Of a DNA stretch of 34,763 nucleotides, positions 981-27,476 are shown in pieces. This DNA comes from Rubrivivax sp. (GTDB lineage: Bacteria > Pseudomonadota > Gammaproteobacteria > Burkholderiales > Burkholderiaceae_C). A program made the position numbers and the translations under genes. The stretch spans positions 1-34,763 of the forward strand of contig JAEUPD010000006.1 of assembly GCA_016788525.1 (NCBI GenBank), written 5' to 3'. Position 1 is the stretch's first letter, and each line of letters begins with the position of its first letter. The notes beneath the pieces were generated by a model. It searched no databases and was not told the origin of the DNA. It saw nothing but the letters and a program-made list of their open reading frames with translations.

Positions 981-1032
981 GCCTGGCGCCTGCGCCACGG
1001 GGGGCCAAGGGCACGCGTGGCCCGGCGCTTGG

Positions 1033-1739: not shown

Positions 1740-1765
1740 TACGGAGTCCGGCGGCCGACCCGGCC
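1740..1765 (-). promoter_or_regulatory. ECF-type promoter motif before the small membrane protein gene
   Basis: Read on the minus strand this is GGCCGG (1765-1760), a 16-base spacer, then CGTA (1743-1740), 55 bp before the ATG at 1685. The same CCGG-N16-CGTA arrangement occurs before five other transcription units in this window with no mismatch in either block. Spacing and block positions suit the -35 and -10 elements of an ECF sigma factor. Which sigma factor uses it is inferred from the neighbourhood. Confidence 0.7.
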
Positions 1766-1870
1766 ACGGTGTCGTCATCTCGCAAAGGGAGGCCCTGCGG
1801 CGGGCCCGCGACGGCAGCAACCGGTGGCGTGCGCCGGAGGGTGCGGCCGGGCCGGCCCCAGCCTGGTGTG

Positions 1871-4861
1871 TCAGCGAGCGCGCGACGCCGGTGGTGCCGC
1901 GGCCGGCTCGGACGCCAGCCGGCGGCCCAGCGCCCGCAACGCCTCGGCGTCCCGTGCGGGCACACGTGTCCAGCGCTGATGAATCGCACGCGCGGCCTCG
2001 AGTTGCTCGCGTGCGGGCTGCCGTTGGCCGGTGGCAGCGAGCGCATCACCCAGGGACAGGTGGGCGTCTGCCAGGACCAGGCTCACCCGCAGGTCGCGCA
2101 GCGCACGCTGGCCATCGAGCGCTGCCCGCAACGGCACGAGCGCCTCTGCGGCACGGCCTTGCGCCAGCAGCGCACGGCCCAAGACACCCTGAAGCACCGG
2201 CTCGTTCACGGCGCGCCCGCGGCGGGAAGGGCCACCGCCGGCGATGACCGCCAGCGCCTGCCACGCCGTCGCCTCCGCCCGGGCCGCGTCGCCCGCGGCG
2301 AGATCGATCTGGGCCGCCAGCACCGCACCCTGGATGCGCTGCAGTGGCGCTGCCGTGTCGGCAAACACCAGTGCGACGAGGGCGCGGGCGTCGTCGGTTC
2401 GGCCCCGTCGCAGCGCCAGCGTGCTGCGCATCAGGCTGGCGGCCAGGCGTGGGCCGTGGCCCAGGTCACGCCCGTTGGCCACGCCTTCGGCGCGCGCGAT
2501 TGCGTCGGCGGCTCCCTCAAGATCGCTGCGCGCCATGCGCAGGTTCGCGGTCACGCGCCAAGCACTGAAGGTGTCCATCGGGTTGCGCGCGGCTTCACCA
2601 TCGATGTCGGGCAGCCGGTTCACGGCCTCGATCCCCTCGTCGATTCGACCCAACTGGAACAGGGCCGTGGCCTCCTGCATGCCGACGGGGAAAACGAACT
2701 CCTTCAGCGCCGGTAGCGATGCGAGCTTCGCCCGCATCGCGCGCACGGTCTGCAGAGCCTCGGCCGCATGGCCTTCTTCCAGCAGGGCGCTGACAAGGCG
2801 TCGGCGGCCGATGAAGACGTTCGCACTGTCGGGCCCGCCGTTGGCCTCGTCCATCTCGATCACCTTGCGCAGCAGCTCGATGCCGCGCTCCCCGTTACCG
2901 CTTTCCAGCTCGGCGAACGCCCACAGGTCGTAGGCCGCCGGCAGCTTGCTGGCCACCCCGCCGGGCAGCTTGGCCGCGACATCGATCGCCTCGGCCAGCG
3001 CACGCCGCGCACCCTCGAAGTCGCCGGTGACGCGCCGCAGCCCGCCCAGAAGGCTCAATGCATCCACCCACTCGGGCGACGGCGCCTGCTCGCGCAGCAG
3101 CTTCATCGCCCGCTCGGCGTAGGGCAGGCCGCGCGCGTCGTCCACGAAGTTGTAGAAGTCGCCCATCGCGATGTCCACGGCGATGCGCGCCTTGCGATCG
3201 GGCTCGCGCTGCGCCGCCAGCAGCTGGTCGGCCTCCTCCAGCACGGCCCGCGCCTGCGCGTTGCGACCGCTCGAGTTCAGCGCCTGGGCTTGCGCGGCCA
3301 GCGCCGCCACGTGGGTGGCGCTGCCTGGCCCGTCCAACCGAGCCGTCAGGCGCGCGGCGCGCGCACGCAAGTCGGCCGAGCGCTCCAGCAACGCCATGTC
3401 TTCGTAGACCTCGGCCAGCGTCTCGAACACGCGAAGCTGGGCCCGCGGTTCGCCGGCGAGCGCCTGGTCCACGCGCGCCACGCCCTCGTCCAGTAGAGCC
3501 AGGGCCGTGCGCTGGCGCGCCTTCGCCGGGCTGGGCTGATCACCCGAGCTGGCCTTGAAGATGCCTTCCAGGAAGTCCTGCACCGCTCGCGCAGTCTGCG
3601 CCTCGGACTGTGCACGCAGCGCCTCCCTCTGCGCGCGTTGCGCCTCGGCCTCGGCCCGCCGTGCCTGCTGCAGCGACACCACGCTCGCCCCCAGCACCAC
3701 GGCAAGCATCGCTGCCGAGGCCGCCACCCCCACGCGGTGCCGCGCCACGAACTTGCGCAGCCGGTAGCCCATGCTGTCGGGCTGCGCCAGCACGGGCGCG
3801 CCGTCGAGCCAGCGCCGCAAGTCGGCGGCAAAGGCTTCGGCGGTGGCATAGCGCTCGGCCGGCGCCTTCTTCAAGGCCTTCAACACGATGTTCGACAGGT
3901 CGGCCGGCACGCCCTTGGGGCGCGGCGGCTCCTGGCCGAGCACGGCCGCTTCCACCTCGTGCGGCTTGCCTTCGAAGGGCCGCACGCCGGCCAGCAACTC
4001 GTATAGCAATGCCCCCAGGGCGTACACATCCGTGGCCGTGCTCACCGCGGCGCCGGCGATCTGCTCCGGCGCCGCGTAGCCGAGGGTGAGGGCGCGGCCG
4101 CCCACGCGCGTGAGCTCGGTCTCCTGCGCCTGGCCCTGTTCGCTTTCCATCAGCTTGGCGATGCCGAAGTCCAGCAGCATCGCCTGCCCGTCGGCGCGCA
4201 CGAGCACGTTGCCGGGCTTCAAGTCGCGGTGGATGACGAGGTTGGCGTGCGCGAACTGCACCGCCTCCAGCACCTGGCGCAACAGCGCCACGCGCTCGCG
4301 CGGGCCCAGTCCGAGGGCCTTGCAGTACGTGGTGATCGGCTCGCCCTGCACGTACTCCAGCGCGAGGTAAGGCTGGCCGTCCTCGGCCAGCCCGGCGTCG
4401 TACAGGCGCGCGATGTGGGGGTGCGCCAGCGCGGCCAGGATGTCGCGCTCGCGCGCGAAGCGCTGCACGAGCACGCCGCGCCGGGCGCTGAACATCGGCA
4501 GCTTGAGCGCCACCTGCCGCTTCAAGGCCCCATCGGCGCGTTCGGCCAGCCAGACTTCGCCCATGCCGCCGACGCCCAGCTCGCGCACCAGGACGTACGG
4601 TCCCACCCTGTCGCCCGCGGCAGCACGAGCCGACGCCACGCCTTCCGGCAGCGCGAAGACCGGGCCGCGGTCGATCAGGTCTGCGGTCTCGCCGGCCCCC
4701 TTGCGCGCCAGCAGTTGCCGCAGGTTGGGTGCCAGGCGCGCTGCCACATCGTCGGCAGCCTCAAGGCGTGCGAGCCATGCCTCCTGCTCGGCAGGGTCCA
4801 GGTCGAGCGCCGTGTCCAGAAGCTGCGACAGCTTCTTCAGGTCTTCGACCGGCAGGCTCAC
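1871..4861 (-). CDS. Transmembrane Ser/Thr protein kinase with C-terminal TPR repeats
   Basis: The 996-residue product has a helical pre-kinase region (1-88) of the LSQLLDTALDLDPAEQEAWL type, then a Hanks-type kinase domain at about 88-350. Visible motifs are the glycine loop GVGGMGEVW (96-104), the VALK lysine K120, HRDLKPGN (211-218, catalytic D213), DFG (231-233) and the GYAAPEQ activation-segment end (261-267). One membrane helix lies at about 377-398, followed by an Ala/Arg/Gln-rich coiled coil and some 560 residues of TPR-like helices. Kinase inside and TPRs in the periplasm is the expected topology. It phosphorylates Ser/Thr of target proteins with ATP. The gene is 179 bp downstream of the ECF sigma factor gene on the same strand and has its own CCGG-N16-CGTA motif 54 bp before the ATG. 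The sigma factor is the obvious candidate substrate, since it lacks the acidic motif normally found in ECF region 2. Three decayed relatives of this kinase are present in the window. Confidence 0.93.
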   Translation of the reverse strand: MSLPVEDLKKLSQLLDTALDLDPAEQEAWLARLEAADDVAARLAPNLRQLLARKGAGETADLIDRGPVFALPEGVASARAAAGDRVGPYVLVRELGVGGMGEVWLAERADGALKRQVALKLPMFSARRGVLVQRFARERDILAALAHPHIARLYDAGLAEDGQPYLALEYVQGEPITTYCKALGLGPRERVALLRQVLEAVQFAHANLVIHRDLKPGNVLVRADGQAMLLDFGIAKLMESEQGQAQETELTRVGGRALTLGYAAPEQIAGAAVSTATDVYALGALLYELLAGVRPFEGKPHEVEAAVLGQEPPRPKGVPADLSNIVLKALKKAPAERYATAEAFAADLRRWLDGAPVLAQPDSMGYRLRKFVARHRVGVAASAAMLAVVLGASVVSLQQARRAEAEAQRAQREALRAQSEAQTARAVQDFLEGIFKASSGDQPSPAKARQRTALALLDEGVARVDQALAGEPRAQLRVFETLAEVYEDMALLERSADLRARAARLTARLDGPGSATHVAALAAQAQALNSSGRNAQARAVLEEADQLLAAQREPDRKARIAVDIAMGDFYNFVDDARGLPYAERAMKLLREQAPSPEWVDALSLLGGLRRVTGDFEGARRALAEAIDVAAKLPGGVASKLPAAYDLWAFAELESGNGERGIELLRKVIEMDEANGGPDSANVFIGRRRLVSALLEEGHAAEALQTVRAMRAKLASLPALKEFVFPVGMQEATALFQLGRIDEGIEAVNRLPDIDGEAARNPMDTFSAWRVTANLRMARSDLEGAADAIARAEGVANGRDLGHGPRLAASLMRSTLALRRGRTDDARALVALVFADTAAPLQRIQGAVLAAQIDLAAGDAARAEATAWQALAVIAGGGPSRRGRAVNEPVLQGVLGRALLAQGRAAEALVPLRAALDGQRALRDLRVSLVLADAHLSLGDALAATGQRQPAREQLEAARAIHQRWTRVPARDAEALRALGRRLASEPAAAPPASRAR

Positions 4862-4914
4862 GGCGCTCCCTTCTCTCCGTCAAGGGCCCGGCTGCGGCCC
4901 GCTGCGACGGGACA

Positions 4915-4940
4915 TACGGAATCGGCGCGTACGACCGGAC
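4915..4940 (-). promoter_or_regulatory. ECF-type promoter motif before the kinase gene
   Basis: On the minus strand this reads GTCCGG (4940-4935), 16 bases, then CGTA (4918-4915), followed by TG; the start codon is 54 bp further. The extended left block TGTCCGGTC is shared base for base with the motif before the DUF4384-like gene at 27376-27401, with the same spacing to CGTAT. The site lies in the 179-bp gap after the sigma factor gene, so the kinase can be expressed independently of it and would be under positive feedback if this sigma factor reads the motif. Confidence 0.75.
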
Positions 4941-5040
4941 ATGGCACGGCGCCCGCCAGGCAAGGCCCACCGGTGGCGGCGTGTCGGTGCAGCGGCGCTC
5001 ATGGGACCAGCGCGCCCTGCCGCGACACCGGAGACAGCCT

Positions 5041-5592
5041 CTACCCCATGGCGGCCAGCAGCAGCAGGCGCGCCTTTTCCCAGTCGCGCCGCACCGTGCG
5101 TTCAGACAACCCCAGCGCCTCGGCGATCTCCGGCTCCGAAAGGCCCCCGAAGAAGCGCATCTCTGCCACCTGCGCCAGCCGCGGCTCGGCCTTCTCCAGC
5201 ACCTCCATCGCCGCGTGCACGCGCAGCGCGTCGTTCTCGGGAGCGGCAATCTGCTCCGAGAGTTGCGTGTCGAGCACCACGTGCTCGGAGTCGCCGCCGC
5301 GCCGCTCGGCCGAGCGCGCGCGCGCGTAGTCGACGATCACCGAGCGCATCACGCGCGAGGCATACGCGAAGAAGTGGTGGCGGTTCTCCACCGGCAGCGA
5401 TTCGGCGCCGACGATCTTGAGGAACGCCTCGTGCACGAGCGAGGTCGTCCCCAGCAGCGTCATCGTCCGGTGCGGCCGCAAGCGCGCCGCAGCCAGCCGG
5501 CGCAGGTCTTCGTAGAGCATGCTGAAGGCTTGTCCGGCGGCTTTCTGGTCGCCTTGGCGGGCCGATTCGAGCAGCGTCGTCAATTCCGACAT
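5041..5592 (-). CDS. ECF-family RNA polymerase sigma factor (PF07638/TIGR02999 type), probably kinase-controlled
   Basis: The 183-residue product starts MSELTTLLESARQGD and has region 2 at about 25-95 (LYEDLRRLAAARLRP; HHFFAYASRVMRSVIVDYARA) and region 4 at about 130-183, with a helix-turn-helix LSEPEIAEALGLSERTVRRDW. This is the look of the Sigma70_ECF/TIGR02999 group. It directs RNA polymerase to extracytoplasmic-stress-type promoters. The start at 5592 follows GGAGG at good spacing; a longer frame to 5640 has no such site. At residues 48-51 it has GTTS just before LVHEAFLK, where most ECF factors carry an acidic DAED-like motif. This is the arrangement described for factors activated by Thr phosphorylation. 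No anti-sigma gene is adjacent, and a Ser/Thr kinase gene follows. I found no CCGG-N16-CGTA motif upstream of this gene, so it does not appear to be autoregulated that way. Confidence 0.92.
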   Translation of the reverse strand: MSELTTLLESARQGDQKAAGQAFSMLYEDLRRLAAARLRPHRTMTLLGTTSLVHEAFLKIVGAESLPVENRHHFFAYASRVMRSVIVDYARARSAERRGGDSEHVVLDTQLSEQIAAPENDALRVHAAMEVLEKAEPRLAQVAEMRFFGGLSEPEIAEALGLSERTVRRDWEKARLLLLAAMG

Positions 5593-5906
5593 GACACCTC
5601 CGATCCCTCTGGCGCATTGTGGGGCCACCGGGTCAGGCACCTATGCCCCCAGCGCGAGGTCCGCCTGGGCTTCGAGAAGCGGCTCTACCCGGGCGATACA
5701 GGCCCGGCTGCTTCGCTCTCACGAAGTCGAGCAAGAGCGCCGAACTGCGCGCCTTCGCGACAGGCAGTGCACAGCTGCCAGCCCCACCCTCCCCGGTTGA
5801 CACCTAGCGAGGTTCGCGCGCGGCGCGTTGCACGCCCGGAACGTCCGCTTCCAGCCAGAATTGGCGTATGTGCAGGTACGCCGTCCTGTCGGCACCGAGG
5901 ATGCTC
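5593..5906. other. Divergent intergenic region between sigma factor and 5907 gene
   Basis: This 314-bp stretch separates the minus-strand sigma factor gene from the plus-strand gene at 5907. It holds the sigma factor's ribosome binding site (GGAGGTG, just above 5592) and, towards the right, the GTCCGC-N16-CGTA motif at 5843-5868. No convincing small gene was found. A TTGACA at 5797-5802 has no matching -10 element. Confidence 0.5.
5843..5868 (+). promoter_or_regulatory. ECF-type promoter motif (one mismatch) before the 5907 gene
   Basis: GTCCGC (5843-5848), 16 bases, CGTA (5865-5868), followed by TG. It differs from the motif of the other units only in the last base of the left block. The right block overlaps the ATG at 5868, so a transcript from this site would begin after that codon. 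This argues for the downstream GTG at 5907 as the start of the gene. Confidence 0.6.
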
Positions 5907-6728
5907 GTGATACGCAACTGCAATGTGTTGATATTGGCGGCCCTGCTCGGCTCGCCTTTGCATGCCGAGCCGGGCCATGCTTTTGTGCTCGCACTGAATG
6001 GCACTTGGTCGGTTCAAGGTCGCCCAGGCACCCTCGCGGTGGGCAGCGCTGTGCCAGCGCCGTCTGAGCTCGTCATCGCCCGTGCAGCCCCTGGCAATCA
6101 CATCGTCATCGTCGCCGCGCGCAGCGGCGCGGTGCTTCTAGCTCACGAGTGCGCCGGGGCAGCCGATTGCCGCAAGCCGGTCACGCTGCCAGCGCCGAGC
6201 CCTGCCCCGTCCAGTTCGACCCTGGGCGAGCAGATCGAACGGGTGATGAGGCGGCTCGAGGGCGCACCCGACCGCTACGTCGCCACGATGTCGCGAGAAG
6301 GTCGCATGCTTCAGGAGGCGGTACTGCCGTTGCAGGATGGCGAAGTCGACCTCACGCCTGCGCTCGCGAATCTTCCCGCGGGCCGCTTCGAGACCACCTT
6401 GCAGCGCCTGGACTGCGTGAGTCCGTGCGACGAGTCCGCATCGCTGCGCATGTCGATCGACTGGCGCCCTGGCGCCGCGGCGCGGGCGCCGGCTCCCGGA
6501 CTTCGGGCGGGCGTGCACAAACTGCTTGTGCGTTCACTCGCCCGTGCAGCGCCGTCGCCACCGCGGCGCGCGCACGTGCTGCTAGTGGCCGGCCCTGACG
6601 CACCCGGGCACGCGGCCCGGTTCGACGAGTGGGTGGCGCTTGCGCGCTCCTGGGGCGACACCGTCGACGCAGCAACGCGCCAGGCCCTGCTGCATGCGGC
6701 AATGGATGAGCTCGCCGAGCGTCCGTGA
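5907..6728 (+). CDS. Exported protein of unknown function upstream of the CHAT gene
   Basis: The 273-residue product has a Sec signal peptide with core VLILAALLGSPLHA before EPGHA. The mature part contains two cysteine pairs (HECAGAADC and DCVSPC), a Pro/Ser-rich linker and a C-terminal helical segment (FDEWVALARSWGDTVDAATRQALL). The start codon is chosen as GTG at 5907: GAGG lies six bases upstream and the promoter-like motif overlaps the alternative ATG at 5868; an ATG at 5901 abuts the GAGG. It is the first plus-strand gene before the CHAT gene, 525 bp away, and could share its transcript because no terminator is obvious between them. I do not recognise a family. It may be a periplasmic partner of the CHAT protein, but this rests on position only. 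Confidence 0.75.
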   Translation: MIRNCNVLILAALLGSPLHAEPGHAFVLALNGTWSVQGRPGTLAVGSAVPAPSELVIARAAPGNHIVIVAARSGAVLLAHECAGAADCRKPVTLPAPSPAPSSSTLGEQIERVMRRLEGAPDRYVATMSREGRMLQEAVLPLQDGEVDLTPALANLPAGRFETTLQRLDCVSPCDESASLRMSIDWRPGAAARAPAPGLRAGVHKLLVRSLARAAPSPPRRAHVLLVAGPDAPGHAARFDEWVALARSWGDTVDAATRQALLHAAMDELAERP

Positions 6729-6747
6729 TGCGCACGCCGCACCACGA

Positions 6748-7035: not shown

Positions 7036-7112
7036 CTCGGCCGGCCCGACCGGCGCGAGCGCAGCCTCGCGTTCCTGCTCAGGCAATGTGGCTCCTCGCT
7101 CTCGCAATCGCA

Positions 7113-7196
7113 CTTGCGCTCGTGCTTGCGCTCGTGCTTGCGCTCGTGCTTGCGCCCGTGCTTGCGCTCGTGCTCGCACCTGCGCTCGAACCTGCG
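7113..7196. repeat. Tandem 12-bp repeat before the CHAT gene
   Basis: Five consecutive copies of CTTGCGCTCGTG occupy 7113-7172, with one substitution in the fourth, followed by two degenerate copies (CTCGCACCTGCG and CTCGAACCTGCG) to 7196. Because 12 is a multiple of three, every frame stays open: plus-strand Leu-Ala-Leu-Val repeats, minus-strand Arg-Ala-Gln-Ala or His-Glu-Arg-Lys repeats. It lies between the kinase remnant and the CHAT start and is judged non-coding here. Confidence 0.85.
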
Positions 7197-7253
7197 CTCG
7201 CATTTCGTGGCGGCGGCATTATTGCCCCGGCCGGCTCGCACAAGGTGGTGCCT

Positions 7254-10200
7254 GTGAGTCCGCTGCGGCGCGCTGCGGCCTGCTTGCTGTCGTTCGTGCC
7301 GTTGGCCGTCTGGGGCCAGCTCGTCGAGGGCAAGGGGCCCGATTGCCCGCGACTGCTCGCGACGGGCCAGCGTTGGGCCTGGGTCGGACACCCCCTCGAT
7401 GCCACGCGTGCCGTGCTCGTCGTCGACGACGGCCGTGTGCTGCCGTTGGTGCGGGATGGGGCCACCACCGCACCCAGGCTGGCTCAGCCCTGGCCCGACG
7501 CCGATTGCATCGTGCACTCACTCCCGTCGCCGAATGCCGAGTTGCCGTTGCCCGCCGCCGCGGCGCAAGCGCTGGTCGAGGGCATCGGCGCCATGCCGGC
7601 GCCGGAGGTCGCCGCGCAGCGCCGCGGCGGCCTGGCCGAGCGCGCGGCGGCCTGGCGCCAACTCGGCGAGCGCCTGGACGCAGCCCTGGCCGATCGGGCC
7701 GCAAGCGCCGAACGCGAGCCGATGGTGACCGCGCTGCTCATGCGGCTCGAGGCCGCCACGCAACTCGCGGCCCTCGCCGCCGGCCGTATCGACATCGCGC
7801 CCACGGCATTGGAGCAGCGCCGGCAAGCGCTGCTCGCGCGGCTGGGTACCCAGGCCCATGCTTCTGTCGAGGCCCTGGTCGAATGGGTCGTTGCGCTCGA
7901 TCTGCTGGACTCTCAGCGCCAGGCGCTGGATCTGCTCGAGGCCGAGCTGCCGGCGTTGGTGCGAGCGCTCGGCGCCACGCGGCGCCAGACCCTGCGCCTG
8001 GAAGAGCTTCGCGTGCGTGCGCTGGTCTCCGCCCGAGGTGCCACGCGCGCGCTCCCGGCAGCACAGGCTCTGCAGACCGGGGCGCGCGAGGCGTTGCCTG
8101 CGGCCGACCCGCTGCGGGCCGACACCGAGCTCACCCTGGCACGGGTGTTGGTGGGCGCGGGCCAACGTGCCGAAGCGGCCGCGCTGCTCGAAGAGCTGGC
8201 GGCGCGGCTGGGCAGCGCGCCTTCGCAGCGGGCAGCGCGGGTGCAAGACCGCATGGCCACGGCTTACCTGTCGACCGGGCGCTTATCCGAGGGGCTGCTC
8301 GCCACGCAGCGTGCGTATCTGATGGCGCTCGATCTTGTGGGCCCCGAACATCCCGACGGGCTGCGCGCGACCAACAATTTCGCCGACAACCTGCGCCAGC
8401 TCGGCGACAACGAGGCCGCGCTGCCGCTGGCGCGCCGCGCGCACGAGGGCTACAAGCGGTTGTACGGCGAGGGCCACCGCAATGCGCTCATCTCGGCGCG
8501 CAACGTGTCCTTGCTGCTCGGCGAGCTCGGCCAGCCCCAGGAGGCCCTCTCATTCGTGCAGGCCCAGCTCGCCGCAGCCGAACGCCGGCTCGGGCCGGAC
8601 GACGCGCAGGTGCTCAACACCCGCATCCACGTCGTCGAGCTGCTCGATCTCATCGGCCGCCATGCCGAGGCCGTCGACGTGGCCGTGGCACTCGTCGAGC
8701 CCACCGAGCGCCGCTTCGGTGCCCAGGGCGAGCTGAGCATCGTCAACCAGACGCTGCTAGCAGGTGCCGCCGCCGCGGCCGGCCAGCCGGAGCGGGCCGG
8801 TCGCGCCCTGGCGCTTGCCAGCCAGCGCATCGAACGCATCGAAGACCAGCGCCGCGCGCTGGGTTTGCTCGAAGTGGCCGCACGCACCGCCGAGCGCGTG
8901 GGCGACCCGCACCGGCACGAGGCGCTGCTCGCGCGCTACGTGGAGCTGGCCGAGCGTGCCGACCGCTCGGGCCTTTCGGAAGATGCCGCTTCATGGGTGC
9001 AGCTGTTTCGCGCCGCGCCGCACCTGCGCTGGGTGGTCATGCGCGCCGAGCGTGGCGAGGTCGATGCGGCATTCGACCTGAGCGAACGCTTCAAGGGCCG
9101 CGTGCTGCTGGCCACCCTCGGCCAGGTGGCTGGCGACGCCAGCCCGGTACTGCCCGAGGCGGTGCGCGCCGAGCTGGCCGAAGCGCGACAGCGCGTGCGC
9201 GCGGCCGAGGCCGGGTTCACCGCTGCCGGCGAGGGCCCGGCGCGCGTGCTGGCCGGCGTGCGTCGCGAAGAAGCGGCACAGGCCTATCTGGCGCTGCGGG
9301 CGCGCGTCAAGCGCGAACACCCGCGCTTCGCCGCGGTGGCCGATGCCCCCGTGCTCGCCAGTGCCGACGTGCCGCGGCAACTGGCCAGCGATACCTGCAT
9401 GCTCAGCTTCGTCACCGGCGAGGCACACGCCGGCGTCTTCGTCCTCGCGCGCGGGCAGGCCATCCGCTGGCTGGCGCTGCCGAGCCCGAAGACGATCGAG
9501 CCGCTCGTGCAGCGCGTGCGCGAGGCCTGGACGAGCCCCTCGCGCGGGCCTACCACGAGCGCCGACGCCGCAGCGCAAACCGAACTGGCGCGCATCGTCG
9601 CGCCGGCGCTCGCGGCCTGCCCCGCAAAGACACGGCGCCTCGTGCTCTCGCCCGACGGTGCGCTGGCGCTGCTGCCCTTCGAAGCGCTGGCGGTCGGCGA
9701 CCGCGCGCTTGTCGAGCGCTATGCCGTGAGCTATGTGCAGTCGTTCTCGGTGCTGGCGTTGCTTCGGCAGCGCGGGGCAGCGCGGGGCGGGGCGGTCCGA
9801 CCGGGCCCGCTGGGTCCGGACCGCCGCGGCCGTCCTGCCCCGTCGCGAAGCACTCTGCTCGGCGTCGGCGCGCCGAGCTTTGCCGCGGGCCCGCAGCAAC
9901 CACCGCCCGGCCTGCCGGAAGCAGCCCTGCGAACGGCCGCGCAGAACGTGGCCGTGGCCCGCCTGGGCGATGACCCTCAGGCTGCACGCCGCGCGTTCGA
10001 TGCCATGGGCATGCGCTGGTCGGCGCTGCCCGGCGCCGAGCGCGAGGTGCGCGATGTGGGCCGCATGTTCGCCGCCTCGCGCCTGCTCATCGGTGAGCAG
10101 GCCAGCGAGGAACGCGTGGCGGCGCTGAACGCCAGCGGCGAGCTCTCGCGCTACCGCTATCTGCTGTTCGCCACGCACGGGTTCCTCTCGTACACCCATC

Positions 10201-10589: not shown

Positions 10590-10657
10590 CGATCGCTCGA
10601 GGTCGCGGCGCGCAGCCCGCGTCGCCGCTGCGCCAAGCCGGGCACGGCCACGATCCG

Positions 10658-18111: not shown

Positions 18112-18128
18112 GAATCCTCCGGTGAAGT

Positions 18129-19796: not shown

Positions 19797-19976
19797 GTTT
19801 CCACTCGCCTCCTGCTCGTTTTCGACATCTTCGTGCGGCACTTGGCAAGTCGCAATCCATCGTCCGTACGAGGTTTCCCGCCCTCGCCCCGCGCTGCCTG
19901 GTGTCCTGCCGATGCGTTTCGCTTCCTGCACTCCACTACGTGAAGACACTGCAAATCCGGACACGGCCAACCCGCG

Positions 19977-22007
19977 CTACGCCCCACCCACCAGCCTCTG
20001 ACAGACGGCGCGGACATCGGGCATGGGGTCGGCCCGCGCCGCGCGGCGCACGGCCGCGTCTGCGTTGGGGTACTGTTGCCGCTCCTGCCACAGCAGTTCG
20101 GCCACCGCCACGCGAACGCGCTCGCTGGCGTTGCGCTGGAAGGTCTTCGTCAACAGGGTCATGCCTGGCCCGGTGGCGCGTGCGGCCAGCGTGCGCGCCG
20201 CAGCGATGCGCACGTCGTCGCTCACGTCCTTCTCCAGAACCACGGCCAGGCGAGTCTCGACCGCGGGCTCGTCGATCCAGCGCAGGGCGTTCACAGCCGT
20301 GGCGCGGGTCTCGGCCTCGGCGTCCGTGAGCCGCGCGGCCAGGATCGGTAGCGCCGCGGGCGCCCCGGTGTTGCCAAGCACGCGGAGCCACTGGCGTCGC
20401 GCGGCACCGTCCTCGGCACTTTCGAGCAAGTACACGAAATTGCGCACGAGCGCATCGCTGCGCGGGGCGTCTGCTTCGCGCAGCCGGCCTGCCATCACGC
20501 CCAGCGCCAGGCTCGCCGTGGCGGAAACGGCCGGCGAAGCAGGGCTCGATGCCAGGCGTTCCAGCGCCTGCACCATGTCTGCGTCCGGCGCCGCGATGCG
20601 CGCCGTTGCGCGCAACAGCCGCAGCGTGGTAGCTTCGTCGGGCGCGCCGACAAGCAGTTGACGCAGGGCCGCCTGCGCAGGCCCATGGCCTGCCGCGACC
20701 AGGGCATCGACGGCGGCGCGCGCGGCCGGGTTGGCGGGCGCCAGCGCGGCCACGCGTTGAACGACCGCGCCGCTGGCCGCCGCGTTCACGATCAGCAACG
20801 CCTTCAGCTTGAGGTACAGGCGCGTGGCGGCTTGCGTGTCTTCGGGCGCAAGGGTTTGCTTGTCCAACAGCTGTAACACACTGGCCGTCGTATCGTCACC
20901 CAAGGTGCTGCGCGCGACGGTGTGTTCGCGCTCCGCTACGCCGAGGCCGTCGGATCCCAAGGGCCGCCTGGGCATCGCATAGGCGGCGTCGGCCTGTGCC
21001 TCGCTCAGCCGCTGGTCCAAGTCCTGGGACCTCAGGCAGCGGGCCTCCATGAGTTCGAACTGCACGGCGGACTCCGCGTTGCCAACCTCGCGCCGGCTGA
21101 GCAGCGTGCGCTGGCTCTCGCGGCCACTGATTCCGAGCACCAGCCCACGCGCACGGTCATACCACACCTGCAGAGTCCCCGCGGGAAGGGTCTGCGTCGC
21201 CACTTCGCGGCGCTCGCCGATGCCGATGGTGGGGGCCTGCGTCGGCAGCGGTGCGCTCCGCGTCTTGGCCAGGCGCCAGACCGAATTCCCCTCTCCCGGC
21301 GCGCGAGCCAGCCGCACGTACTGCGTCCTCAGGCTTCCCGCCGCGTCCTCTTCCAGCCGGCCCCAGGCCGACGGCGCATCGGTCGTTTCAGGCACGCTCA
21401 CCTGCACAAGGCCCAGCAGCGCGCGCAACACCCCCTGCGAGGCGGAGTGCGTGCCGGCCGCGAAGGTGATGCCACGCACCCGGCCATCGGCAGCCACATC
21501 GAGGTACGACCAGGCGGCCAGGTCGGCCGCGACGCGCGACGACGACTCGCTCTGCGCCACGCTGGCCGAAGCGACCTGCGCCTGCACGTCTGCCAGGCGC
21601 ACGGCCACCTGCCGCAGGCCGCTCTCGCCGGCATGTCCGCCGGCTCGCATCGCCGGGCCCAGCGAGTCCATTTCCATGGTCGCGCGCAGCGAAACGCTGA
21701 ACTGGCCAGCCAGGCCAGATGCGCCTTCGCGGGTGCCTCCCTGTCCGGCAAAGAGTGCGGCCAGGCTGTACCGCGCATCGCTGCGAAAGTCCACGGCGTA
21801 GCGCAACTGCGTGCCTGTCGCCAGGCGCCCGGGCACCGCAGGCTCCCTGCACTCGGCGGCACTGGCAGAGGCCGCGCCGCAAAGCGCCAGCACGAAACCC
21901 AGTGCAAACGCCAAGGCCGCCAATGCAGGACCCGCACAAGTCAGGGAGGCACCAGACACCGCCCCCGCGCCACTGCGACGCCCAGCCAGCACGGCCCCGG
22001 CTCTCAT
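19977..22007 (-). CDS. Exported protein with beta-rich N-terminal half and C-terminal HEAT repeats
   Basis: The 676-residue product has a long signal peptide (hydrophobic PALAALAFALGFVLALCG, cleavage near ASA/AEC). Residues of about 60-350 look beta-rich (GTQLRYAVDFRSDARYSLAA, FSVSLRATMEMDSL, GTLQVWYDRARGLVLGI), and the remainder is helical. The last 200 residues are recognisable HEAT repeats (GAPAALPILAARLTDAEAET, DDVRIAAARTLAARATG). Its ATG overlaps the stop of the upstream PAN protein as ATGA (22004-22007), with GGGGGTG upstream, so the two are translationally coupled. The order of a beta-sheet domain before a helical HEAT domain loosely recalls large lipid-transfer proteins of the vitellogenin/MTP kind, but I see no motif that proves it. 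A periplasmic or surface scaffold role beside the TPS pair is inferred from position. Confidence 0.82.
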   Translation of the reverse strand: MRAGAVLAGRRSGAGAVSGASLTCAGPALAALAFALGFVLALCGAASASAAECREPAVPGRLATGTQLRYAVDFRSDARYSLAALFAGQGGTREGASGLAGQFSVSLRATMEMDSLGPAMRAGGHAGESGLRQVAVRLADVQAQVASASVAQSESSSRVAADLAAWSYLDVAADGRVRGITFAAGTHSASQGVLRALLGLVQVSVPETTDAPSAWGRLEEDAAGSLRTQYVRLARAPGEGNSVWRLAKTRSAPLPTQAPTIGIGERREVATQTLPAGTLQVWYDRARGLVLGISGRESQRTLLSRREVGNAESAVQFELMEARCLRSQDLDQRLSEAQADAAYAMPRRPLGSDGLGVAEREHTVARSTLGDDTTASVLQLLDKQTLAPEDTQAATRLYLKLKALLIVNAAASGAVVQRVAALAPANPAARAAVDALVAAGHGPAQAALRQLLVGAPDEATTLRLLRATARIAAPDADMVQALERLASSPASPAVSATASLALGVMAGRLREADAPRSDALVRNFVYLLESAEDGAARRQWLRVLGNTGAPAALPILAARLTDAEAETRATAVNALRWIDEPAVETRLAVVLEKDVSDDVRIAAARTLAARATGPGMTLLTKTFQRNASERVRVAVAELLWQERQQYPNADAAVRRAARADPMPDVRAVCQRLVGGA

Positions 22008-23893
22008 TTCACCCCCGAGGAGCAGCAGTCGCTGCGCGACGGCGGCGGCACCACGTTCTTGAGCCAGCAGCGCGCCTGCGGGCCTTGGATGCCGGGTGCC
22101 ACCCAGGTCCACGCGCGGCACTGTGCTTCGCTGGCGCAAGTGGACTGGCACTGCGCCTCGGTGGCCGGCACGAAGCCGCGGTAGTCACCGCCGGGCCGGT
22201 TCGTCGAACGCTCGATGCCCACTGGCACCACGGGACGCATCTGCCGGTCCAGGGGGCTCGGCACTGGCGGGGCAGGCTGCGGCAGCGTAATCGGGCGCGT
22301 CACCTGTGCCCGCGCGCCCAGCAACGTGGCCGCGGTTCGCAGCGCGCCCATCTCCGGCTCGGTGAGCTGACGTGTGAGCGGGATGCGCACCTCGTCCATG
22401 CCGAAGATGCGGCTGTCGAACGTGAGGCCCGGCCACGACGCCAGCGTGTGGTGAAACTCATGCCGGTCCCAGGGCGGGAGGGCGAGGTTCGGCAGCATGA
22501 TGAACGCATAGATCCCCACGCTGCCGGACATCAGGGTGAGCGTGTTGTCGGCGGCATACCACATGCGCAATTCGGGTGCCGTGGCCTTGTCGAAGACCCG
22601 CACCGGGCGGCCCTGGAAGGTGCTCATGCCGGCGTTCTGCACCTGCGGCGCAAAGTGCCCCGTGACGCGCGCCTCGCCCTCGAGCATGAGGGACTCCTTG
22701 AGCAGCACGAGGTTGAACTCGGCACCGGCCCCTGCCACTACCAGGTCGACACCGGCCTCGGCGTAGGCGGACAGCTCGGCGTAGGGGCCGAACTTGCCGT
22801 GCACCATGCGGTCGTGAGCCTCGAGCATCGCGTACAGGCCCACCTTGCCGCGTGCGCCGAGGTTGACGGTCACCGGGATCGGGCCGATCGGCAGCGTGAA
22901 GCTGACCTTCTCGTCGAAGCCTGTTTCCTGTGGAAGCTCGCGCCGGGGTTGGCTCGACTCCTCGACGGTCGGGAAGAGCTCGCCGCTGACTGTCCTCGCC
23001 GCCATCCTCAGCCGGTTGCCCGTGGAACCCGAGACCGCAAGAACCTCGGCGTCGAGCACCGGAATCTTCTGTCCGAGGAGCTTGATGAACGCGTTGGCGC
23101 CACCTCCCATCCGAAGCGCGTCGCCGTCGAAGCCATGGACCACCTTTGCGTCCAGGTAGACATAGGCGATGTCCTGTTCACCTGCTTCGGTCCACCAAGT
23201 CTTGCCCGGTGAATTCATCAACTGCGCGGCCTGGGGTGTATCCACGCTCAACGGCAACTGGCCGGCGAGGACCAATTGCTCCACCCGCGCCGGGCTGAGC
23301 CGCAGTTGCTGGCTGCGCTCGGCGGCGGAAAGCACGGCGCTGCGGGCGGGTTCGTTGGGCACGACGTTCGCCGTGGCGCGGCGCAATGGCACCAGCGGGG
23401 GGCTGCTCAGGCGCAACTGCGTGCGCGGCACGGCGGTGCGCTGGACCGCCGCGCGCTGCTGCTCGTACAAGGCCGGATTGGGCCGGGTTCGCTGCAACAT
23501 CACGCGCCGTTCACGGCTGCGCAGCGAAAAGCCGCGCGCATTCAGGTCGCTCTCGAGCTTGTTGAGCTGGGCGTAATACTCGCTGGCCGGGACTGAACGG
23601 CCGTTGGGCAGCACGATCATCTCCGTGGGCGCGATCGGCGCATTGGTGCCCGGCCGCAGCATGGGGAACGGCTGGTGCGCAATGGCAGCCCGTCGCTCCA
23701 TGATCTCCACACGCTGGGCAGGCAGCGGTGGGGCCACCCGTGGGGCGGCGCGGAAGGTCCGCCAGTCGGTGTCGCGGGCCTGGAGGGGTACCGCAGCGCG
23801 CTCCGGAGCCGGAGGCTGCTGAGCCACCACCGGCAGCCCCACCCCCAACGCCACGCCTGCCAGGACGGCGCGAATCGCAGACCAAGTCTTCAT
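22004..23893 (-). CDS. Exported protein with C-terminal PAN/apple domain
   Basis: The 629-residue product starts MKTWSAIRAVLAGVALGVG with signal cleavage near VVA/QQ. A long middle part (about 150-500) looks beta-rich (ALRMGGGANAFIKLLGQKI, VSFTLPIGPIPVTVNLGARG). The last 67 residues (about 563-629) form a PAN-like module with six cysteines (GGDYRGFVPATEAQCQSTC, QCRAWTWVAPGIQ, CWLKN, DCCSSG). PAN/apple modules bind proteins or glycans in extracellular proteins. The start at 23893 is chosen because AGGA sits in front of it; ATGs at 23908 and 23920 are alternatives. It is 85 bp downstream of the other PAN gene, and the stop overlaps the HEAT-repeat gene start. The PAN module is closely related to that of the upstream gene but sits at the opposite end of the protein. 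Confidence 0.87.
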   Translation of the reverse strand: MKTWSAIRAVLAGVALGVGLPVVAQQPPAPERAAVPLQARDTDWRTFRAAPRVAPPLPAQRVEIMERRAAIAHQPFPMLRPGTNAPIAPTEMIVLPNGRSVPASEYYAQLNKLESDLNARGFSLRSRERRVMLQRTRPNPALYEQQRAAVQRTAVPRTQLRLSSPPLVPLRRATANVVPNEPARSAVLSAAERSQQLRLSPARVEQLVLAGQLPLSVDTPQAAQLMNSPGKTWWTEAGEQDIAYVYLDAKVVHGFDGDALRMGGGANAFIKLLGQKIPVLDAEVLAVSGSTGNRLRMAARTVSGELFPTVEESSQPRRELPQETGFDEKVSFTLPIGPIPVTVNLGARGKVGLYAMLEAHDRMVHGKFGPYAELSAYAEAGVDLVVAGAGAEFNLVLLKESLMLEGEARVTGHFAPQVQNAGMSTFQGRPVRVFDKATAPELRMWYAADNTLTLMSGSVGIYAFIMLPNLALPPWDRHEFHHTLASWPGLTFDSRIFGMDEVRIPLTRQLTEPEMGALRTAATLLGARAQVTRPITLPQPAPPVPSPLDRQMRPVVPVGIERSTNRPGGDYRGFVPATEAQCQSTCASEAQCRAWTWVAPGIQGPQARCWLKNVVPPPSRSDCCSSGVK

Positions 23894-23978
23894 CGATTTC
23901 TTCCTCATGGTGGTTGTCATTGCGAAGAGTGCGTGGTCGGGTGGCGCGGAACCCGGCACCGCCCATTGATGGCCACAC

Positions 23979-25397
23979 TCATGCGCCGCAATGGCCTTGC
24001 TTCGACATGGTGGCCAGCGGGCGCATGCCGAGCGGGCCGCTGAACGTCCACTCGATGACGTAGTCGATCGATTCACCTGCGGCGTGGAACCACTCCACGC
24101 GGGTGTTCAACCGGCCGCCTTGCGGCTGCAGCACGATCCTTGCGCCACGGGCGGCATCCATCGGGGCCTCGTAGCCCGGGCCGTCGAGGTAGGAGCGCGC
24201 TTTCACGATCCGCGCCGTGGCGCTGAAACCGTTGAGCAGGTTCATGCGGTCGCCGAATACGTCCACGCCACTGCCGCCCTTGCCGCCGCGGTAGTCAGGC
24301 GTGGTGGACAGGCGCGTACCGGGCGCGGTGAAGACGTTCTGTGCGCTGAGGCCGATCCCTCCAGGGCTGGCCAGGTGCGGCGACTTTGCCGTCACGGGCA
24401 CGGTAACGACGATGTTCTGAACGTCGCCATACACGGTGGCGGGGATGCGGGCGGATACCTCCTTGCCGTTGCGAACGAATGCGCTCGCCTGGTACGACGC
24501 AGGCCCGGGCACGGGCTTGGGCAGGAAGAACTTCTCTCCGGGCCGGCTCGGGTCATGCGCAAACGCCACCTGGCCGCAGGTGCCGAGGTCCAGCACCAAC
24601 TCGGCGGTGTCGACCCTTCCCAGGTGGCCCATGACGCGGTATTGCTCGATGCCGTTGCGTGGCACGACGGTGTTCCAGTCGGGAATCTCGTAGCCCCCCG
24701 CCACTGGGCCGAAGCGCGTCAAGCGCAGCGGTGCATTCGGCCCGGCCTGCGGCAGCTGCGGTGGCTCGGGCGTTGCAGCGGGCGGCGGCGCGGTGTTTCC
24801 CGCCGGCGGCAGCGGGCGATTGACACGCGACTGCGGGGTCACGATCGTGCTGCGGACCGCGGCGCCGTGGGTCGCCAGGCCGGTGCCGGCCTGCACCGCC
24901 AGAGCCTGCAGCTTGGTCTCCAGCGCGGGGTCGTTCGGGTCGAGGCCACGCCCGATGAGGCGCGCCGCGGCGGCGGTGCGCGGAGCCGCCATCCTGATGC
25001 CCATGTCGCCGTTGCCGGCGGCGGCGCGCGCTGGCACGCCGGAGATGCAACAGGCATCGGCCTTGGCGGCCGGCTCGGCGCTCTTCAGCCAGCAGTTGCC
25101 GGTGCGGCTCTGTATGCCGGGCCGCACCCAGGTCCAGGCGCGGCACTGGCCCTCCGCGGCGCAGGTGCTTTGGCACTGCTGGGGGCTGGCCGTCTCGAAG
25201 CCACGGTAGTCGGAGCCGTAGCGGTTGGTGTTGTTCTCGAGGGTGCCTGCTCCCGGCAACTGGAGGGCCGGAGCCGTGCGCATCTGGGCTGCGGTCTGAG
25301 CGCTCCCGCGGTCGGGCAGCGCCGCCAGCAGGGCCACGAAGGCCAGCAACGCGACGGCCCGCCAGGGTTTGCGCGAGAGAGTGGATCGGTGGTGCAT
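23979..25397 (-). CDS. Exported protein with N-terminal PAN/apple domain
   Basis: The 472-residue product has a signal peptide (AVALLAFVALLAALPDRGSA before QTA). A PAN-like module lies at about 58-121 (SDYRGFETASPQQCQSTC, QCRAWTWVRPGIQ, CWLKS, ACCISG), followed by a Pro/Ala-rich linker. The C-terminal half is beta-rich with a single Cys in LGTCGQVAFAHD and ends near FSGPLGMRPLATMSKQGHCGA. AAGGAAGG before the ATG at 25397 sets the start. It is the first gene of a six-gene minus-strand run (PAN, PAN, HEAT, TpsB, TpsA, WD40-caspase). A GGCCGG-N16-CGTA promoter motif lies 56 bp upstream. A role in binding at the cell surface or in the periplasm is inferred from the PAN module; the C-terminal half is unrecognised. 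Confidence 0.87.
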   Translation of the reverse strand: MHHRSTLSRKPWRAVALLAFVALLAALPDRGSAQTAAQMRTAPALQLPGAGTLENNTNRYGSDYRGFETASPQQCQSTCAAEGQCRAWTWVRPGIQSRTGNCWLKSAEPAAKADACCISGVPARAAAGNGDMGIRMAAPRTAAAARLIGRGLDPNDPALETKLQALAVQAGTGLATHGAAVRSTIVTPQSRVNRPLPPAGNTAPPPAATPEPPQLPQAGPNAPLRLTRFGPVAGGYEIPDWNTVVPRNGIEQYRVMGHLGRVDTAELVLDLGTCGQVAFAHDPSRPGEKFFLPKPVPGPASYQASAFVRNGKEVSARIPATVYGDVQNIVVTVPVTAKSPHLASPGGIGLSAQNVFTAPGTRLSTTPDYRGGKGGSGVDVFGDRMNLLNGFSATARIVKARSYLDGPGYEAPMDAARGARIVLQPQGGRLNTRVEWFHAAGESIDYVIEWTFSGPLGMRPLATMSKQGHCGA

Positions 25398-25452
25398 GTT
25401 CCTTCCTTGTGGCTGCAACTGGTTCCAGGCCACGGCCCGGCCTGCCATTTAG

Positions 25453-25478
25453 TACGCACAGGCGTGGCTGATCCGGCC
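25453..25478 (-). promoter_or_regulatory. ECF-type promoter motif before the PAN-TPS-caspase run
   Basis: On the minus strand: GGCCGG (25478-25473), 16 bases, CGTA (25456-25453), 56 bp before the ATG at 25397. It lies back-to-back with an identical motif serving the plus-strand OmpA-like gene, 33 bp apart. If used, it could drive the whole six-gene run down to 10658. Confidence 0.75.
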
Positions 25479-25511
25479 ACTCGAGCCCCGCGTGCCTGGT
25501 GATATGCGTGT

Positions 25512-25537
25512 GGCCGGAACCGGCCGGCCACGTCGTA
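25512..25537 (+). promoter_or_regulatory. ECF-type promoter motif before the OmpA-like gene
   Basis: GGCCGG (25512-25517), 16 bases, CGTA (25534-25537), followed by TGG, 80 bp before the ATG at 25617. The left block is part of a hyphenated palindrome, TGGCCGG-N6-CCGGCCA (25511-25530), which might also bind a regulator. Confidence 0.75.
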
Positions 25538-25616
25538 TGGGTCGATGCGACGACGCGTGCCACGCGACTCGGCCGCAATCCGCACTTCAGCCGTGCGCCA
25601 CACGAAACGGAATGCC

Positions 25617-26237
25617 ATGGAACGTTCTCGACAGCGTCACCGGACCGACTCCCCTTCAGCGCCGACCGGCGCGCGGGCAGCGAAGCGCCGCTGCACTGGC
25701 GTGCCGCTTGTGCTCGCAGCCGCGGTGCTCGGCGTCTCGCCGGCGTTCGCCGCGCCTCCCGAGGTGCGGCTGCTGCCGCCCGGCGAACCTGTCGACCCTG
25801 CGTTGGTCGAGCGCATCCTGGGCGGTGCCCCCAAGGGCAGAACTCCGGGGCACCGAAGCATCGTCAAGGTCGACGCCGCTTCGTCCCCCGGCGAAGCGGC
25901 CCCGGCCAGACTGGCGCTGCAGGTGCCTTTCGATTCCGGCTCTGCCCGCCTCGCACCCGAGGCCGCGGCGCAGCTCGATGCCCTCGCCAATGCCCTGATG
26001 CAGCTCGAGGGGCCTGTACGAGTTGCCATCGACGGCCACACCGATGCTCTCGGCTCGGACCCCTACAACGACGCGCTGTCTGCGCGTCGCGCGATGGCGG
26101 TGCGCGAGTACCTCATGTCCCGCTCGGTACCAGGTGACTGGCTGCACGCCCGCGGCCATGGCAAGCGCCGCCCGCTGGACCCGCTGCGTCCCGAGGCCGC
26201 CGAGAACCGGCGCGTCGAATTCGGCCGCCTGCCCTGA
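25617..26237 (+). CDS. OmpA-family peptidoglycan-binding protein
   Basis: The 206-residue product has a basic n-region and signal peptide (VPLVLAAAVLGVSPAFA before APPEVR). An OmpA C-terminal domain occupies about residues 100-206: FDSGSARLAPEAAAQLDALA, IDGHTDALGSDPYNDALSARRA and the closing NRRVEFGRLP. The Asp and Arg of the HTDALGS..N..LSARRA segment are those that bind diaminopimelate in peptidoglycan. No beta-barrel is present, so this is a soluble or membrane-linked periplasmic anchor. The start is taken as ATG 25617 for signal-peptide length, although its ribosome binding site is weak. The gene diverges from the PAN-TPS run and shares the same motif type in its promoter. It converges with the DUF4384-like gene, 41 bp apart. 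Confidence 0.9.
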   Translation: MERSRQRHRTDSPSAPTGARAAKRRCTGVPLVLAAAVLGVSPAFAAPPEVRLLPPGEPVDPALVERILGGAPKGRTPGHRSIVKVDAASSPGEAAPARLALQVPFDSGSARLAPEAAAQLDALANALMQLEGPVRVAIDGHTDALGSDPYNDALSARRAMAVREYLMSRSVPGDWLHARGHGKRRPLDPLRPEAAENRRVEFGRLP

Positions 26238-26278
26238 TCGCAAAGCCGACCGCTGCTCCGCGAGCTGACCGGCCGCGC

Positions 26279-27331
26279 TCAGCGGTGCATGAGCAGAATC
26301 GTGATTTCACGAGGGGCCAGCGCCCCGTTGACCAGTTCGGTTCTATCGATCGGGTCCAGCGCGAAGTTCGTCGAGCCCTCGCGCACGGGCTTCCTGATGT
26401 CGCGGGGCGAAAAACGCTGAGCCGCCTTCTGCGCCGGCGACCCGCAAGCGGCGAGAGCCCAACTGGCCTGCGCGGGCTCGGCAGGCGCGTGCGCTGCACC
26501 CCGGCGAAGCCCGGGCGCGGCTGTGGTCGCGACCCTGACCTCAGGGGGCTTGACAATGTTGCGCGTGGCCGTCATCAGTGGCGGCGTCGTGCAAGGGCTG
26601 AGCACGATGCGCAGCATTTCGTCGCCCTTGGCGTCTGCAAACTCGTAGGGGCCCAGGGTAGCCAGTTCGCCACCGGCGACATCGAGCGCATCGATGCGCG
26701 TCTCCACGCCGAGGGGGTTGACGTTGTGGATCTCGACACGGCCGGGCAGATTGGGCCGGTAGTGAACAACGAAGCGCTCACCGGTGCGAAAGACATGGGT
26801 CGCCGGGTCCACGGGGATCGGCATGCCGTCTCGACCTTGCAGATGCACCTCGTAGGCCACGCCGGTGAAAAGCTGCGGTGCCGCGGTATCGGAACCGGTC
26901 GCCACACCCGCCGGCTGAGGTGAGGGCCAATTCGCCGCGGTTTGTGCAGTCGGCTCGGCAGTACCAAGCGGAGGCGGCGTCGCGCCGGGCGCCGCCAGGT
27001 TGCTGCCCGGCGGCAGGTTTGGCGGTAACGCGGCGTTCCGGGCCTCAAACCAGCGCGTAATCGAGCCGCCCATCCCCTGCGCCATGCTCGAACCGATGCC
27101 CTGGGCCAGAAGGCTGTAGATGGTTGCCAGGAAGAGCCCTCGCGGGCGGCGGCCCGGCGTGGCGTCGTAGCTCGAGGATGCGGGCATAGGCGCCTGTGCG
27201 GTGCCTGCGGTCGGGGGGTACCCCATCTCGGAATAGGGCGCCTGGGCCCAGGCCGGGGCGCCAACCAGCAGCGTGAGGGCCAGCAGCCCGCTGACCGGCG
27301 TGCGGTGCCGTCTGAAGTTGAGCGATGCCAC
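26279..27331 (-). CDS. Exported DUF4384-like protein
   Basis: The 350-residue product has a signal peptide (VSGLLALTLLVGAPAWA before QAP, cleavage near 29). A second weakly hydrophobic stretch follows at about 64-90 (LFLATIYSLLAQGIG, SSMAQGMGG), then a Pro/Ala/Thr-rich linker. A domain at about 155-247 resembles DUF4384: HVFRTGERFVVHYRPNLPGRVEIHNVNPLG. DUF4384 domains are frequent beside caspase and kinase genes in bacteria, which fits this context; their biochemical role is unknown. The start is GTG at 27331: AGGAG lies six bases upstream and the signal peptide starts there, while longer frames give no signal peptide. A GTCCGG-N16-CGTA motif lies 45 bp upstream. Confidence 0.82.
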   Translation of the reverse strand: MASLNFRRHRTPVSGLLALTLLVGAPAWAQAPYSEMGYPPTAGTAQAPMPASSSYDATPGRRPRGLFLATIYSLLAQGIGSSMAQGMGGSITRWFEARNAALPPNLPPGSNLAAPGATPPPLGTAEPTAQTAANWPSPQPAGVATGSDTAAPQLFTGVAYEVHLQGRDGMPIPVDPATHVFRTGERFVVHYRPNLPGRVEIHNVNPLGVETRIDALDVAGGELATLGPYEFADAKGDEMLRIVLSPCTTPPLMTATRNIVKPPEVRVATTAAPGLRRGAAHAPAEPAQASWALAACGSPAQKAAQRFSPRDIRKPVREGSTNFALDPIDRTELVNGALAPREITILLMHR

Positions 27332-27375
27332 AGTGTTCTCCTGCTCGCGACTGCGAGTCCTGGTGCACCGGGATA

Positions 27376-27401
27376 TACGCAAGCGGGGGTGCAGACCGGA
27401 C
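27376..27401 (-). promoter_or_regulatory. ECF-type promoter motif before the DUF4384-like gene
   Basis: On the minus strand: GTCCGG (27401-27396), 16 bases, CGTA (27379-27376), 45 bp before the GTG at 27331. The extended left block TGTCCGGTC matches the kinase promoter motif exactly, and the right block in both is CGTAT. Confidence 0.75.
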
Positions 27402-27450
27402 ACCCGAGCGCGGCACCTCCGGGCCCACGGCGCACACCTGCAGGCAGGCT

Positions 27451-27476
27451 GGCCGGATTGGCAATGCCATTGCGTA
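27451..27476 (+). promoter_or_regulatory. ECF-type promoter motif before the coiled-coil protein gene
   Basis: GGCCGG (27451-27456), 16 bases, CGTA (27473-27476), 82 bp before the ATG at 27558. It is back-to-back with the motif for the DUF4384-like gene, 49 bp apart, the same arrangement as in the PAN/OmpA intergenic region. Confidence 0.75.

Follow-up and report, generated by a model that had tools for sequence, protein, structure and literature searches.

A 34,763-nucleotide stretch of Rubrivivax sp. DNA (GCA_016788525.1, contig JAEUPD010000006.1; hereafter the window), which is one entire contig (C85) out of the 268 of a 73% complete genome of 4.43 Mb, carries a two-block motif, TGKCCGG-N16-CGTA, in front of many of its genes. 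From the sequence evidence, we propose, with a probability of roughly 80%, that the extracytoplasmic function (ECF) sigma factor encoded at 5041-5592 recognises this motif as its -35/-10 promoter, that TGTCCG-N17-CGT is the corresponding promoter of a kinase-linked subgroup of TIGR02999 sigma factors, and that the adjoining Ser/Thr kinase activates the sigma factor in a loop amplifying the kinase and not the sigma factor. The motif precedes most units of the cluster, though not the sigma gene itself, and recurs beside related sigma genes; it is thus very probably the switch by which a kinase-controlled sigma factor activates the cluster. An earlier note on this DNA had proposed an ECF regulon; it did not mention the probable activating role of the kinase, the absence of the motif in front of the sigma gene, or a 90% identical paralogue with which the regulon might be shared.

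In the window, KCCGG-N16-CGTA gave 7 exact matches, compared with a mean of 0.54 and a maximum of 4 in 100 dinucleotide shuffles, none of which gave 7. The looser CCGG-N16-CGTA returned the same 7 matches, all outside the 19 listed genes and all directed toward a gene. The non-genic share of the window is 10.7% of the bases, which is if anything an overestimate since the stretch 30522-31811 was counted as non-coding. When the spacer was set to 14, 15, 17 or 18 bases, 3, 1, 1 and 1 matches were found, respectively, and all 6 lay inside listed genes. All seven exact sites extend to TG[GT]CCGG, a prefix that the earlier note had left undefined. The arrangement is that of an ECF-type promoter, with two conserved blocks, a fixed spacer and sites aimed at genes.

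The seven sites listed by the earlier note all exist, six of them exact and the one at 5843-5868 with CCGC; a seventh exact site, at 19937-19961 (minus strand) before tpsB, had been overlooked. The total is thus eight, the 7 exact sites and the one-mismatch site 5842-5868. Measured from CGTA to the start codon, the six exact sites first listed lie, in coordinate order, at 54, 53, 55, 79, 44 and 81 bases, and the weak site lies at 32; the earlier note had given 37 to 82 bp. The distance is 140 bases for the site before tpsB (ATG at 19796). The earlier note had called six exact sites in a few short intergenic regions far beyond chance. However, at the rate assumed there, about 4 per 100,000 positions, some 2.8 CCGG-N16-CGTA matches would be expected over the two strands of the window, so that the number of sites by itself stands out only moderately; what counts is where they lie, their spacer and their TG prefix.

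A scoring matrix was trained on relatives alone (15 sites, 14 relative loci, sigma identity <83%). It gave six window matches of at least 12 (13.2 to 32.4), versus a mean of 0.25 in 60 shuffles. The sites 5842-5868 (7.9) and 25511-25537 (7.3) scored level with a match at 31266-31297 (7.4); the former reads CGTCCGC, and TGTCCGC is a common form among the sigma relatives (12 of 46 labelled loci). The window scan showed no matrix match above 8 before the sigma gene, the sigma-54 activator gene or the M48 peptidase gene, and for the latter two the earlier note had said the same. Gene order suggests that most genes between 294 and 30521 could be transcribed from the eight sites, the sigma gene excepted.

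The sigma factor matched TIGR02999 over residues 1-182 (172.6 bits, cut-off 126.15) and PF07638 over residues 1-176 (153.2 versus a threshold of 21.1). Its region 2.2 reads GTTS (residues 48-51), where many ECF sigma factors carry acidic residues; among 38 aligned sigma factors, T49 is invariant and T50 is at least 90% conserved. In a fold search with a predicted model of the protein (mean predicted local distance difference test score, pLDDT, 78), ECF sigma factors came top, best in the region-4 domain, with no match at E 0.001, and a sequence search for a solved structure gave none at E 0.01. The kinase (1871-4861) contains HRDLKPGN, DFG and APE and, judged by eye, a probable membrane span. 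ECF sigma factors are described as recognising the unwound bases of the -10 block through pockets of region 2 (PMC6411747), which fits the conserved CGT.

The proposed mechanism runs as follows. Because GTTS takes the place of the usual acidic residues in region 2.2, the sigma factor would be idle until the adjacent Ser/Thr kinase phosphorylates a Thr of GTTS, presumably T50 by analogy with EcfP. The phosphorylated sigma factor would then join RNA polymerase and fire up to eight promoters of the cluster. Since one of these would drive the kinase gene and none the sigma gene, the loop would amplify the activator and not the sigma factor. The other promoters would drive exported or surface proteins (TpsA/TpsB, PAN, OmpA and Vitellogenin_N-like) together with CHAT and caspase-like proteins.

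The surroundings of related sigma genes were examined in the best 80 of 124 relatives, where the nearest named relatives of the window sigma factor belong to Rubrivivax metagenome genomes; the cultivated relatives with such a sigma-kinase pair include Roseateles oligotrophus and Povalibacter uvarum. CCGG-N16-CGTA occurred within 300 bases after the sigma gene in 17 of the 80 loci, and spacers of 10-15 and 17-23 gave 0-3; these downstream sites read TGTCCGG[TA][TC]-N14-CGTA. With one mismatch allowed in TGTCCG, the block TGTCCG-N17-CGT was found downstream of the sigma gene in 40 loci (1-5 for each of twelve other spacings), on the opposite strand in 4, divergently upstream in 16 and pointing toward the sigma gene in 3. 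One spacing and mainly two orientations beside the relatives thus support the ECF regulon first proposed in the earlier note. Matrix matches of at least 13 fell outside called genes in 55 of 91 cases, although only 11% of the DNA lies there. The figure was 44 of 75 after removal of the training sites, and 22 of 46 once the training loci and the sigma-downstream sites were left out.

A genus sample provided 29 loci for 57 listed matches, with the downstream block in 15. Because 14 of these duplicate loci of the set of 80, the replicate really consists of 15 loci. In these, the block was downstream in 5, divergent in 10, on the opposite strand in 1 and never toward the sigma gene; 10 of the 15 had either of the first two placements, and other spacings gave 0-1. 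Six genomes of the genus held 17 exact matches, of which 6 lie no more than 500 bases from a sigma relative. In G706 and G692, the only match of the genome is beside such a relative.

A common way to look for the targets of an ECF sigma factor is to start from a motif preceding its own gene. The ECF41 study took this route in part (PMC3426412). Here, the motif precedes the sigma gene in only 3 of the 80 loci, which is chance level, and the own-promoter route would therefore miss it.

Among 46 loci, the fourth -10 base was A in 22, T in 14, C in 7 and G in 3, and it follows sigma clades. A link with sigma residue 41 (His together with A in 21 of 22 rows) was kept as a clade-level trend only, since the 3-5 changes and 2-3 independent pairs on the tree are too few to bear it out. 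On the sigma tree, presence of the motif required 11 changes versus a mean of 22 after shuffling and is hence clustered. In a class-wide TIGR02999 sample, 28 of 30 loci were used, one of the two omitted being the second piece of one gene (L207) and the other the C140 paralogue described below (L051). The downstream block was present in 1 of the 28 and a divergent block in 4, two of them exact. These class-sample sigma factors, with QAT, QPT and similar residues in region 2.2, belong to the same NCBIfam family and many have a kinase-like open reading frame (ORF) beside them, but they differ from the window subgroup in this near absence of the downstream block. Thus, a promoter common to all TIGR02999 sigma factors was ruled out, and the promoter belongs to a subgroup and not to the family. 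In a quick tree, from which six long-branch rows were dropped, 21 of the 22 placed class-sample rows fell on one side, with none of the 83 window-set rows (97 in the Shimodaira-Hasegawa-like approximate likelihood ratio test).

We lean, by a small margin over even odds, towards an unrecognised kinase-linked ECF subgroup of Beta- and Gammaproteobacteria, with some Acidobacteriota. Its members would use a common promoter code, TGTCCG-N17-CGTN, in which the final -10 base changes from one sigma clade to another. This code would lie downstream of the sigma gene and ahead of the divergent neighbour without preceding the sigma gene itself; the loop would raise kinase and cargo while the sigma factor remains an uninduced relay, and each lineage would plug in its own exported, adhesin-like or CHAT/caspase-like cargo. 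Among relatives, the switch is conserved and the cargo varies. Pfam was run on 30 chosen neighbouring proteins rather than on every gene behind a site. The first 10 behind a block comprised six with PKD, Calx-beta or TIG domains, two nitroreductases and two without a family; the second 10 comprised two permeases, one kinase, one bactofilin, one AraC-type regulator and five without a family.

The genome as a whole holds 52 matches to the short pattern, 7 of them in the window, and 12 to TGKCCGG-N16-CGTA, of which 7 are in the window, 3 (contigs C140, C143 and C216) are correctly oriented before an ORF and 2 are intragenic. Equal frequency inside genes, which would have told against the earlier note, was hence not observed. 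Of the exact TGTCCGG-N16-CGTA form, the genome has four, three in the window. The sigma gene, described before as the single one, is single in the window, but the genome has five TIGR02999 matches, one of them (C140) 90% identical to the window sigma factor. At the sigma genes of C169 and C68, no exact TGTCCG-N17-CGT was found within 300 bases; C68 has one with a mismatch. The sites may be promoters of this class for which another sigma factor of the genome, such as that of C140 or that of C143, is the main or a joint reader, so that the regulon is shared. Both have the same motif nearby, and the C140 protein is 90% identical to that of the window. This possibility is appreciable, yet clearly the less likely one, as the motif is concentrated beside the window sigma gene (7 of 12 in this contig).

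Several observations weigh against reading the motif as the promoter of the window sigma factor and the kinase as its activator. A reversed-pattern control gave 562 genome matches versus 52 for the motif, with a different base composition, and exact TGTCCGG-N16-CGTA occurs in 155 of 300 genomes of the order, usually once or twice. Counts alone therefore prove little, and the genome evidence is the clustering and placement of the sites, not their total. The largest matrix score in the shuffles, 16.5, is above three window sites. The downstream block is missing in 40 of the 80 loci, genome G710 has no exact match near its sigma relative, and the two exact divergent blocks of the class sample (TGTCCGG-N16-CGTT, L196 and L197) lie outside the window subgroup. 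Conservation of the cargo was unusable, the PAN and 350-amino-acid proteins being without full relatives in 100 genomes. As for the kinase, one is called directly downstream of the sigma gene in 56 of the 80 loci, which speaks for the proposal, but the block is as common without (11 of 19) as with it (26 of 56); in the closest kin (L062-L064) it precedes a membrane protein or permease gene and not a kinase gene.

The promoters could then be correct and the kinase be without action on the sigma factor, control being exerted by the amount of sigma factor or by another partner. The kinase-independent frequency of the block speaks for this, as does the C140 sigma gene, which has no kinase gene directly beside it among the genes scanned. 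However, the replacement of acidic residues by Thr in region 2.2, with the T49 and T50 conservation given above, and the kinase-dependent activation described in print for EcfP and EcfK make such a situation unlikely. Activation of the window sigma factor by the adjoining kinase is preferred.

Among known systems, EcfP is described as devoid of the acidic DAED residues, with PknT phosphorylating the second Thr of its STTA; for EcfK, PknS is the phosphorylating kinase and a type VI secretion system the target (PMC8999054, PMC8103513, PMC13147305). Like the genes of these ECF43 members (EcfP/PknT of Vibrio parahaemolyticus, EcfK/PknS of Xanthomonas citri), the window sigma gene adjoins a Ser/Thr kinase gene. 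In region 2.2 the likeness is partial: the acidic residues (DxxD) are replaced and Thr is present, but the sequence reads GTTS versus the QTTA consensus, the comparison resting on residues and the neighbouring kinase. The cargo also differs, comprising two-partner secretion, CHAT and caspase-like proteins where those systems have type VI secretion or polymyxin resistance. The literature search yielded no ECF43 promoter motif in the text available, nor did it find the window motif in any publication on ECF43, TIGR02999 or kinase-linked ECF promoters, the ECF classification and EcfP papers lying outside its coverage. Among the promoters compared, the nearest published one is that of ECF41, TGTCACA-n16-CGTC (PMC3426412). 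Like it, the window -35 block begins with TGTC, the spacer has 16 bases and CGT stands in the -10 block; unlike it, the -35 block continues with CGG and not ACA (TGTCCGG or TGGCCGG). The window sigma factor, of 183 amino acids, also lacks the fused C-terminal regulatory extension of ECF41, and the motif is not in front of its gene.

It is improbable that the motif is a transcription factor site, recognised for instance by the nearby sigma-54 activator or by a regulator carried along with the sigma gene. Such an activator gene is indeed close to the sigma gene in the window, L062 and L063, but the fixed spacing of the two blocks, the one-way orientation to the next gene, the CGT of the second block, the likeness to the ECF41 promoter and the way the site tracks sigma genes all argue for a promoter. 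Chance matches in a GC-rich genome, as the 45 further genome matches of the short motif might suggest, can practically be discounted, given where the sites lie, their spacer, their TG prefix and their return in relatives.

As the promoter of the kinase-linked sigma factor, the motif would turn orphan kinase-sigma pairs into testable regulons. It would also connect signalling by the kinase with two-partner secretion and with CHAT and caspase-like proteins. All sites and genes are collected in Table 1; the gene caller was crude, and misplaced the C143 gene.

Table 1. Candidate promoter sites and genes of the window, with the extended motif matches elsewhere in the genome
Feature	Position	Strand	Pattern, family match or remark
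Candidate promoter before 75-aa membrane protein gene	1740-1766	-	TGGCCGG-N16-CGTA; exact; matrix 13.2
Candidate promoter before Ser/Thr kinase gene	4915-4941	-	TGTCCGG-N16-CGTA; exact; matrix 32.4
Weak candidate before 275-aa protein and CHAT unit	5842-5868	+	CGTCCGC-N16-CGTA; one mismatch in CCGG; matrix 7.9
Candidate promoter before tpsB	19937-19963	-	TGTCCGG-N16-CGTA; exact; matrix 17.4
Candidate promoter before first PAN-domain gene	25453-25479	-	TGGCCGG-N16-CGTA; exact; matrix 16.2
Weaker candidate before OmpA gene	25511-25537	+	TGGCCGG-N16-CGTA; exact; matrix only 7.3
Candidate promoter before 350-aa protein gene	27376-27402	-	TGTCCGG-N16-CGTA; exact; matrix 23.5
Candidate promoter before 161-aa protein gene	27450-27476	+	TGGCCGG-N16-CGTA; exact; matrix 16.5
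Permease	294-981	-	PF03547 (Pfam scan on 294-1280)
Small ORF	between permease and 75-aa membrane protein genes	-	
75-aa membrane protein	1458-1685	-	no Pfam family match
Ser/Thr kinase with TPR repeats, proposed activator	1871-4861	-	PF00069 5.8e-41
ECF sigma factor, proposed reader of the motif	5041-5592	-	TIGR02999, PF07638; 183 aa
275-aa exported-looking protein, divergent from sigma gene	5901-6728	+	no Pfam family match
TPR-CHAT protein, start uncertain	7086-10589	+	PF12770 7.1e-59
WD40 repeats and caspase-like domain	10658-13858	-	PF00656 2.1e-09, WD40; NF047832 below its cut-off
TpsA-like exported protein	13837-18111	-	PF05860 2.8e-34
TpsB transporter (tpsB)	18129-19796	-	PF03865, PF08479
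Vitellogenin_N / HEAT repeat protein	19977-22007	-	PF01347, PF13646
PAN-domain protein 2	22004-23893	-	PF14295
PAN-domain protein 1	23979-25397	-	PF14295
OmpA-family protein	25617-26237	+	PF00691
350-aa exported-looking protein	26279-27331	-	no Pfam family match
161-aa protein	27558-28043	+	no Pfam family match
822-aa TPR protein	28053-30521	+	PF13424
Sigma-54 activator	31812-33509	-	
M48 peptidase	last gene, after sigma-54 activator	+	
TGKCCGG-N16-CGTA on C140			44 bases past stop of the 90% identical sigma gene, before permease gene (PF03547)
TGKCCGG-N16-CGTA on C143			behind kinase gene of second sigma-kinase pair; 41 bases before ATG of an exported-looking ORF of at least 136 aa
TGKCCGG-N16-CGTA on C216			82 bases before ATG of S41/PDZ peptidase
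TGKCCGG-N16-CGTA on C14 and C207			both inside genes
aa, amino acids.

Footprinting through the cargo genes was dropped, since the Vitellogenin_N, PAN and 350-amino-acid proteins are nearly without relatives. The first was present in 1 of 300 genomes of the order, the window's own, with no relative in the other 299; in 100 relative genomes, PAN proteins were found in 2 (the window's own and one partial domain match) and the 350-amino-acid protein in its own genome only. The Vitellogenin_N/HEAT protein (19977-22007) adjoins the two-partner secretion pair. At about 7100-7205, the first codons of the CHAT ORF form a near-repeat run (gcgctcgtgctt), and the start codon of this ORF is uncertain.

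The C140 cluster is a partial duplicate of the window system. Its locus (L171, 2218-8525) encodes TpsB, CHAT and permease proteins and, behind the permease gene, a small membrane protein resembling that of the window. The flank of the candidate promoter of the 75-amino-acid membrane protein gene (1740-1766) is kept at L062 5897 and L063 8764, although the neighbours of the sigma gene are arranged differently there. The sigma-54 activator gene near the sigma gene in three genomes lies at 31812-33509 in the window, at 3413-4993 in L062 and at 4507-7944 in L063.

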